Below are positions 7,602 to 8,504 of a DNA stretch of 64,000 bases, piece after piece. The stretch is taken from positions 1 through 64,000 of the forward strand of contig DATENU010000007.1 in NCBI GenBank assembly GCA_035274845.1, given 5' to 3'. Every line of letters begins with the position of its first letter. Position 1 is the first letter of the stretch. Source of the DNA: Chthoniobacterales bacterium (GTDB taxonomy: Bacteria; Verrucomicrobiota; Verrucomicrobiia; Chthoniobacterales; UBA10450). The notes below the pieces were generated by a model. It saw only the letters and a list, made by a program, of their open reading frames with translations. It did not search any database and was not told the DNA's origin. Made by a program: the position numbers and the translations under genes.

Positions 7602-7650
7602 GCTCTATTTTCAGCGTCATTTCCGATTTGTCATCCCGTGCGATGCGCGG

Positions 7651-7750
7651 GTTTCCGTCACCCCTTCGGGGTTAGGTGATTCGGGATCCACCCCCCCCGG
7701 AGTTCGCTGCGCTTCACTCCGGGCTTTAATCCCACGCGCCTCCGGCGCTG
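7651..7750 (+). repeat. Composite intergenic repeat, copy 1 (forward)
   Basis: Begins GTTTCCGTCACCCCTTCGGGG, contains the hairpin CCCGGAGTTCGCTGCGC..CACTCCGGG, then GGGCTTTAATCC, and ends GCGCCTCCGGCGCTG. The same order of blocks occurs in five further copies (7793-7890 reverse, 7916-8013, 18747-18850, 18998-19096, 19160-19261 reverse). The two short reading frames drawn across it code for nothing recognisable. Confidence 0.85.
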
Positions 7751-7792
7751 CAAGGAAAGCGCGCTCACGTTCCGATTCTGCCGTTATGGTTA

Positions 7793-7890
7793 GCCCCAAC
7801 GGGGCGTCGGATTAGAGCCCGGAGTGAAGCGAAGCGAAACTCCGGGTGCCGATCCCGACTGAAATCAAGCCCCGAACAGGGGCGACGGAA
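7793..7890 (-). repeat. Composite intergenic repeat, copy 2 (reverse)
   Basis: Reverse-orientation copy: AGCCCCAACGGGGCG, GATTAGAGCCCGGAGTGAAGC, ACTCCGGG, then CAGGGGCGACGGAA, which is the inverse of the TTCCGTCACCCC block of copy 1. It lies 42 nt after copy 1 and 25 nt before copy 3. Confidence 0.8.
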
Positions 7891-7915
7891 GGATCGATGC
7901 CGCCCAAAAGGCGTG

Positions 7916-8013
7916 GTTTCCGTCACCCCTTCGGGGTTTGGTGGATTTGTGAAAGGTCCCCGGAGTTCGCTCTGCTCACTCCGGGCTCTAATCCGGCGCG
8001 CCTCCGGCGCTCA
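7916..8013 (+). repeat. Composite intergenic repeat, copy 3 (forward)
   Basis: GTTTCCGTCACCCCTTCGGGG, then CCCGGAGTTCGCTCTGCTCACTCCGGG split by one or two changes from copy 1, CTCTAATCC and GCGCCTCCGGCGCT. The three copies 7651-8013 explain almost all of the 526-nt gap between the maoC-like gene and the tRNA; nothing else is visible in it. Confidence 0.85.
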
Positions 8014-8127
8014 AGCAGGTCCGAGGCAGCCGGGAATCCCAGCGTTTCACGCGACGCTACGAACGGAAGCTGTCGATGAGCCCGTTGACACAAACGCTCG
8101 CGGCGGTATTGAGTTTGTCTCGCAAAC

Positions 8128-8199
8128 GCCAGGGTAGCTCAGCGGTAGAGCAGGGGACTCATAAGCCCTTGGTCGGGAGTTCGATTCTCCCCTCTGGCA
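8128..8199 (+). tRNA. tRNA-Met (anticodon CAT)
   Basis: 72-nt cloverleaf. The acceptor arm GCCAGGG pairs with CTCTGGC (one G-T), the D stem is GCTC/GAGC, the anticodon loop CTCATAA gives CAT, and the T arm is GGGAG-TTCGATT-CTCCC. The discriminator base is A and CCA is not encoded. The G1-C72 pair argues against an initiator tRNA; CAT could also be the tRNA-Ile2 read after lysidine modification, which sequence alone does not settle. The base pair under the anticodon loop (A31-G39) is a mismatch. The last 31 nt are repeated perfectly at 8474-8504. Confidence 0.92.
8169..8199 (+). repeat. Direct repeat, left copy (tRNA 3' end)
   Basis: The 31 nt running from the variable loop to the discriminator base of the tRNA, identical to 8474-8504. 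The identity ends on both sides: 8168 is C against G at 8473, and 8200 is G against C at 8505. Confidence 0.95.
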
Positions 8200-8208
8200 G
8201 TTTCTTAA

Positions 8209-8451
8209 ATGGCTTGGGTCTATATCCTCCGCGGTTCCACCGGTCGCCATTACATTGGCTCAACCGTCGATCTCGATGCACGCTTCGCGCAGCATATTCG
8301 TGGTCACACCGCAACCACGAAGCGTCTCGGTGAGAAACTTGAAATTGTTGCAGCAAAGAGATTTTCGTCGCTAAGCGAGGCCCGCTCGGTCGAATGTCGA
8401 TTGAAAAAAAAGAAGAACCCTAAACTCGCGATTTACTATTTGCGCCGGTAG
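8209..8451 (+). CDS. Small GIY-YIG domain nuclease
   Basis: 80 aa, one bare GIY-YIG domain: WVYILRG (the GIY-equivalent strand), HYIGST (the YIG-equivalent), the Arg-containing helix LDARFAQHIRG, and the C-terminal Glu in SLSEARSVECRLKK. Domains of this size (UPF0213/YhbQ type) are predicted single-strand or structure-specific nucleases; the fold also occurs in UvrC and in intron homing endonucleases. The gene starts 9 nt after the tRNA and is bounded by the 31-nt direct repeats. Its Lys-rich C-terminus (KKKKNPK) fits nucleic-acid binding. No ribosome binding site is obvious, so it may be read from the tRNA transcript. Confidence 0.88.
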   Translation: MAWVYILRGSTGRHYIGSTVDLDARFAQHIRGHTATTKRLGEKLEIVAAKRFSSLSEARSVECRLKKKKNPKLAIYYLRR

Positions 8452-8455
8452 GCAG

Positions 8456-8473
8456 CCCCGAAAGCTTTCGGGG
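8456..8473. terminator. 18-nt perfect palindrome after the GIY-YIG gene
   Basis: CCCCGAAAGCTTTCGGGG is fully self-complementary, begins 4 nt after the stop codon and directly abuts the right copy of the tRNA repeat. It could end transcription or mark the inner border of the cassette. Confidence 0.45.
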
Positions 8474-8504
8474 TTGGTCGGGAGTTCGATTCTCCCCTCT
8501 GGCA
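8474..8504 (+). repeat. Direct repeat, right copy (orphan tRNA 3' end)
   Basis: 31 nt identical to 8169-8199: GGTCGGGAGTTCGATTC and the CTCTGGCA acceptor strand. No 5' half of a tRNA precedes it, so it is not a second tRNA gene. Confidence 0.95.

Follow-up and report, generated by a model that had tools for sequence, protein, structure and literature searches.

The sole tRNA gene in a 64,000-nucleotide stretch of DNA from a soil bacterium of the Chthoniobacterales (the window) lies in a block that belongs to a large family of very small cassettes, which probably invade single-copy tRNA genes by nuclease-driven homing and bring a replacement tRNA with them. At the level of aligned genomes, the loci collected here show that the insertion lies in the anticodon arm and deletes it, that each border has a hairpin and that the borders enclose a complete tRNA followed by a GIY-YIG nuclease gene. 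They likewise show states of gain and loss, and amplification. That the nuclease drives movement by homing is our best inference.

Architecture at occupied and empty tRNA genes

An empty and an occupied tRNA-Lys locus from the same region and genus were compared. The empty locus (L107, genome G028) carries an uninterrupted tRNA-Lys of the allele GGGTCGG...CCGACCC. The occupied locus (L026, genome G446) matched it at 85% on the upstream side, as far as tRNA position 28, and at 89% on the downstream side, starting near position 42, and the 13-nt anticodon stem-loop was exchanged for about 418 nt made up of a palindrome (P), a stub, a spacer, a complete tRNA-Lys, a decayed GIY-YIG gene, a second stub and a second P. 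The inner tRNA-Lys was of a different allele (GGGTTGG...CCAACCC), while the outer halves kept the native allele; a further locus, L050 (G034), agreed with L026. We regard this comparison as decisive: the native tRNA gene was split, and the cassette carries a complete tRNA of other origin. The inner tRNA of L026 and the empty target have identical anticodon arms, and the native outer halves reach to within about 5–11 nt of the insert, arguing that there was no long co-conversion tract at this locus. As a rule, tRNA searches found one full-length, high-identity copy each of tRNA-Lys and of the tRNA-Met discussed below per genome, so the inner copy appears to be the sole working one. In G034, a tRNA-Lys fragment that includes the anticodon arm (positions 27–73; C286:6624-6670) lies 1.3 kb downstream of the L050 cassette and resembles the classical attachment site of an island, here in the native allele.

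In many relatives, searches with tRNA sequences also placed tRNA 5' fragments (positions 1–26) about 86–90 nt ahead of the intact gene, each followed by the same P and the short stub TTGGTC. The full order is native promoter, tRNA positions 1–26, P, stub TTGGTC, about 45 nt, intact tRNA, GIY-YIG gene, stub AGAGCAG, P and tRNA positions 42–72, with a cassette size of roughly 300–420 bases. Full, right-only, left-only and other partial states were all present among the loci collected.

The window copy is right-only, lacking the left part with its second hairpin and tRNA 5' part (Table 1). Its 31-nt repeat is perfect, with a start-to-start distance of 305, and the nuclease gene begins 9 nt past the tRNA and has its stop codon inside a GGTAG stretch similar to the tRNA D-arm. 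The stub reads AGAGCAG in relatives and may reach back to tRNA position 5 (L046). A strict consensus scan did not recover the candidate promoter TTGACA-16-TATTGA, whose counterpart in relatives of the full form precedes the 5' part of the split native tRNA. Judged by syntenic relatives, the segment running from promoter to repeat (8080-8504) is inverted with respect to the neighboring MaoC-like and 255-aa genes. Just upstream, at 7650-8011, are two copies of a non-coding module, spaced by about 260 nt and containing direct and inverted repeats, which may possibly be linked to the inversion.

Table 1. Features of the tRNA-Met block in the window (positions 8085-8504)
Feature	Position	Strand	Basis or remark
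Candidate promoter TTGACA-16-TATTGA	8085..8112	+	only suggestive
Intact tRNA-Met(CAT)	8128..8199	+	Rfam tRNA match of 64.7 bits in the same locus as L001
tRNA positions 42-72, copy 1 of the 31-nt repeat	8169..8199	+	repeat search
GIY-YIG nuclease gene, 80 aa	8209..8451	+	Pfam PF01541
Stub GGTAGGCAG; compare tRNA positions 17-26, GGTAGAGCAG	8447..8455	+	
Hairpin P, 18 nt, CCCCGAAAGCTTTCGGGG (CCCCGAA-AGCT-TTCGGGG)	8456..8473	+	stands where the anticodon stem-loop would be
tRNA positions 42-72, copy 2 of the repeat; right half of the split tRNA gene	8474..8504	+	abuts P

Across the family, the tRNA-Met locus has a shared gene order of aminotransferase, two small genes, tRNA-Met, MaoC-like gene and acyl-AMP ligase. 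Within the genus of the window, tRNA-Met is uninterrupted here in G002, G005, G006 and G007, and among the same neighboring genes G001 is left-only, G003 full and the window right-only. Presence and absence at a fixed site in close relatives, as expected of a homing element, was found both in these tRNA-Met states and in the tRNA-Lys pair. For close tRNA-Met members sharing one syntenic locus, much of the history may be vertical with losses.

These results bear on an earlier note made from the letters of the window. The tRNA, the perfect repeat, the 80-aa GIY-YIG gene and the 18-nt palindrome that it listed were all confirmed. It had also held that the unit has no integrase, and there is no integrase gene on the window's contig; the only plausible gene of the 305-bp unit encodes the GIY-YIG protein, and the unit contains neither a Y1 HUH transposase nor TnpB. 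Its statement that excision would leave a normal tRNA holds for removal of the GIY-YIG gene and repeat, and left-only loci display such a state; the four uninterrupted genes supply the empty site in sister genomes that it had proposed as a check. Its picture of a unit bounded by the repeat needs a further border, which lies upstream in the complete form, and the T-arm and acceptor sequence that it suggested as the recognition site gives way to the anticodon arm as the insertion point.

Hairpin and nuclease of the cassette

Among close family members, the 7-bp stem of P is constant and its 4-nt loop varies; across lineages, stem changes are compensated on both arms and a stem of 5–9 bp is kept. 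The mean stem was 5.9 of 6, compared with 2.9 when arms were re-paired between lineages, a descriptive contrast because the 16 sequences were hand-chosen from different loci. P is present at both cassette ends in direct orientation and folds as single-stranded DNA. Judging from these substitutions, P is a conserved hairpin that would form in RNA or in single-stranded DNA. A role as a double-strand palindromic site was rejected because the centre varies while the stem is kept, and a role as an intrinsic terminator because P has no T-run match. Two further candidates were discarded: an internal promoter that would serve the inner tRNA and use the stub TTGGTC as its -35 element, for which the best -10 scores equalled those of shuffled spacers, and an acceptor-like pairing of the ORF end with the 3' copy, seen in the fold of the window and absent in relatives such as L008. 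At L184:600-680, the loop of the right hairpin is enlarged by about 50 nt with further hairpins and the stem is retained.

The window protein matched PF01541 over nearly the whole profile (49.6 bits against a cut-off of 22.6; E 5e-13), and residues Y5, Y15, G17, R25, H29 and E62 were invariant in 22 sequences with identities to it as low as 31%. The structure model was confident (pLDDT 91), and the best Foldseek matches in the PDB were UPF0213, Slx1 and the UvrC N-domain, all with E above 0.001. The protein is a bare catalytic domain. Frame-shifted, decayed nuclease genes occur at several loci, fitting the life cycle of homing genes. In L021 and L023, the nuclease ORF has lost its stop and extends into the 3' copy of the tRNA, so that it ends in a tail such as GLVPGSSPGRP; tails of this kind in annotated proteins are translated tRNA sequence.

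Spread and movement

A scan of bacterial genomes returned 29 relatives. A tRNA gene lies directly upstream on the same strand in 21 of the 22 from Verrucomicrobiota, and where that tRNA was recognized the nuclease gene starts 5–13 nt past its 3' end in 20 of 21, the exception (L019) having an extra unit. Downstream, nearly all Verrucomicrobiota relatives carry a copy of the 3' part of their own upstream tRNA, beginning at about position 42–51. Close relatives lie downstream of a Met or Lys tRNA, more distant ones of Pro, Asn, fMet or Val. Six actinobacterial homologues (L027, L028, L030 and L032-L034) had no nearby tRNA, indicating that the link to tRNA genes is specific to the present set and not universal for GIY-YIG relatives. 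In the tRNA-Met set, the intact gene differs between species at three positions of its 3' part, and in 43 of 45 cells the downstream copy had the letter of its own species, a score reached by none of 5,000 shuffles. Chance is excluded because placement beside a tRNA gene and copies of the 3' part of that same tRNA recur among the relatives.

In Verrucomicrobiota, the cassette pattern was found at Met, fMet, Lys, Pro, Asn, Val, Arg, Thr, Ala and Ser tRNA genes, at least ten kinds, each with parts of its own tRNA; direct reading of the sequence established the arrangement at Arg-CCT, Thr-CGT, Ala-GGC, Ser, Pro and fMet genes. Of 388 Verrucomicrobiota genomes sampled, 169 have a relative at E 1e-5 or better, a figure that also takes in members away from tRNA genes and so does not number the cassettes. 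Among the Patescibacteria, a single locus (L222, Lys-CTT) is window-like in form and several are mirrored, with the tRNA 5' part, hairpins, GIY-YIG gene and intact tRNA in that order. The break in tRNA-Leu(TAA) falls on the anticodon itself. Three tandem nuclease units stand at both Arg and Thr loci, and at the Ala locus L192 two complete units and a partial third read as mutual copies, which makes amplification there recent; left units are also tandem, at L019, L184 and L185. Carriage by a phage or plasmid was rejected, as neither collection gave a match; viral contigs held two weak relatives. The small GIY-YIG genes beside tRNAs with 3'-end repeats that the earlier note had suggested seeking in Verrucomicrobiota thus exist at many loci, and the gene, far from keeping always to one place and one tRNA, occurs with at least ten tRNA kinds and has empty sites. 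The mini-element that the note envisaged stands as a small, integrase-free, mobile-looking unit of that breadth, but its intact tRNA can be a foreign replacement rather than a restored host gene.

Several loci depart from the common layout. A distant family member in the window's own genome (L002, C20:114831-118025) stands at tRNA-Val with a 23-nt 3' copy, and its hairpin seems to surround the T-arm rather than stand before it. The same genome has near-identical GIY-YIG genes in tandem with no tRNA directly adjoining (L003/L004, C24:30145-33831). In a tRNA-Ser cassette (L191:780-1020), the right copy has several hairpins inside the anticodon loop, and its T-loop holds a 24-nt unit repeated about four times. 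At G016:C12:150590-170779, tRNA-Lys carries a left hairpin unit, with the nuclease gene and the right-hand hairpin 20 kb off, as if an island had entered between them.

Comparison with host genes gave mixed signs of movement between lineages. The window's GIY-YIG protein was 75–76% identical to those of other genera and 71% identical to that of its congener G003, an opposite trend to the flanking host gene (51–56% and 82%, respectively). In approximately unbiased (AU) tests on the GIY-YIG protein, the host groupings G000+G003 (p 0.030) and G000+G003+G015 (p 0.014) were rejected, whereas dn255 strongly supports both. At the DNA level, G000+G003 (p 0.29) and likewise G000+G003+G015 were not rejected, and another host group was rejected (p 0.045). 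We take the trees, drawn from 80 residues, as moderate evidence that the gene may have moved, and the different-allele inner tRNA at L026 as stronger evidence of such movement.

Mechanism, rivals and precedents

We propose that the nuclease would break tRNA-gene DNA and that repair of the break would draw on a donor carrying the cassette, by way of the short tRNA-like stubs at either cassette end, amounting to homing without an intron. The replacement tRNA would render an otherwise lethal insertion tolerable and would put a cost on losing the cassette. At a later stage, recombination between repeated parts of the tRNA could yield tandem amplification, left-only and right-only states, the latter as in the window, and clean loss. 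We prefer homing with stub-mediated repair because of the superfamily to which the nuclease belongs, its life cycle and the precedent of SegB. SegB is a GIY-YIG enzyme that cuts tRNA-containing DNA and drives tandem amplification of tRNA and segB (PMC13096335), and segB is listed between tRNA-Arg and tRNA-Ile in the T4 tRNA cluster (PMC2988022). This free-standing nuclease of T-even phages resembles the cassette in being a small GIY-YIG enzyme among tRNA genes that undergo tandem amplification via short shared sequences, but it is phage-borne and intergenic, and no tRNA-gene splitting, replacement tRNA or hairpin borders are described for it. The main difficulty for homing lies in the inner tRNA, whose anticodon arm is still that of the target, so that a simple cutter of this site would cut its own cassette. 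The homing model also gives no account of the role of the hairpins. Counting against it as well are the lack of a long co-conversion tract at L026, the DNA-level test that did not reject G000+G003 and the possibly vertical history of the close tRNA-Met members.

A hairpin-directed mechanism in single-stranded DNA would account better for P and is the main rival, if an unlikely one. Here the same cassette would move by a nuclease acting on hairpins: P at both ends and the anticodon hairpin of the target would be recognized through the shared flanks AGAGCAG...TTGG, and the target hairpin would be swapped for the cassette, in the manner of IS200/IS605 ends or single-strand-specific GIY-YIG enzymes (Ssn). 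The direct orientation of P at both ends, its compensated stem and variable loop, its exact substitution for a hairpin, the match of its flanking stubs to the tRNA flanks and its folding as single-stranded DNA all speak for such a mechanism, but the hairpins of tRNA-Ser are multiple and lie inside a retained anticodon stem, the inner tRNA would again be a target, and we know of no joining activity in GIY-YIG enzymes. IS200/IS605 and REP-type elements are very small and have directly oriented hairpins near both ends; the cassette shares the small size and end hairpins of IS200/IS605 but has no Y1 transposase or TnpB, and its targets are tRNA-specific. The Ssn enzymes, reportedly described in 2025 (Nat Commun), are said to be minimal single-strand-specific GIY-YIG endonucleases tied to repeated sequence sites and resemble the cassette in placing minimal GIY-YIG proteins at repeated sites; they are not known to be connected with tRNA genes, replacement tRNAs or hairpin borders.

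The remaining explanations assign the nuclease a different part. It is improbable that the cassette is a passenger moved in trans by tyrosine integrases that use tRNA genes, with the GIY-YIG protein incidental: integrases are encoded elsewhere in the genome and classical tRNA-Lys 3'-half fragments (positions ~27–73) occur in the same genomes, but the cassette repeats lack the anticodon arm and are accompanied by an extra upstream 5' part, unlike ordinary integrase integration, most occupied sites have the GIY-YIG gene and no integrase in the unit, and the catalytic residues are conserved. Quite improbable, too, is a device acting at the RNA level, in which tRNA-like pieces with a blocked anticodon arm would be co-transcribed as decoys, processing signals or an RNA antitoxin to a tRNA-cutting GIY-YIG enzyme, mobility being secondary. 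The common left-only and right-only states, the unconserved spacer, the lack of any internal promoter or terminator seen at these loci and the unaltered anticodon of the inner tRNA all argue against it, despite a gene start 9 nt past the tRNA, co-oriented pieces, the conserved hairpin and the tandem arrays of left units. We give virtually no credence to repair-mediated partial duplication of a tRNA 3' end beside an unrelated nuclease gene, the alternative raised in the earlier note; it can be read from a single locus alone, but is refuted by phylum-wide recurrence at many tRNAs, with copies of each locus's own tRNA and hairpins.

Over these alternatives we favor homing with a replacement tRNA, and its nearest parallels differ in how the host is spared. 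Homing genes spare their hosts by residing in introns or inteins or by an intergenic position. Synthetic cleave-and-rescue drives pair a nuclease with a working copy of the essential gene that it disrupts; the cassette is natural and bacterial, and resistance of its rescue copy to cutting is not evident. Integrative elements in tRNA genes (attB) are similarly bounded by a repeat of part of the tRNA and leave a working tRNA, but the cassette has no integrase, spans only ~300–420 bp, and breaks and deletes the anticodon arm with displacement of both native halves. Group I introns in tRNA anticodon loops share with it the region of insertion, an internal nuclease gene and an insertion harmless to the host; a tRNA-fMet intron enzyme is specific for the anticodon region (Bonocora and Shub 2001, as summarized in PMC3984707). 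They differ in that the cassette has no ribozyme match and harm is averted by a replacement gene, not by splicing; a group I intron or its remnant was rejected as an explanation, as Rfam gave no match except tRNA in six loci.

Searches of the open literature, which takes in few subscription papers, found no description of the arrangement, and a term search of a GIY-YIG superfamily survey returned no such tRNA context. The cassette looks like an undescribed route by which a selfish gene enters an essential gene without host death. We put forward tentatively, as a possibility a little short of even, that it is a natural cut-and-replace element, spread over two or more bacterial phyla and no fewer than ten tRNA kinds: its nuclease, about 80 residues long, would open essential single-copy tRNA genes in the anticodon arm, its replacement tRNA would make the insertion survivable and its hairpins would form the ends, with no intron, intein or integrase. 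Harm would then be undone by a spare copy of the broken gene, placing the logic of cleave-and-rescue within about 400 bases at an essential tRNA gene. Such an element would account for the small GIY-YIG genes and tRNA fragments that lie beside tRNA genes in many genomes, would make minimal GIY-YIG proteins testable as site-specific tools, and would offer tRNA genes a route of horizontal replacement.
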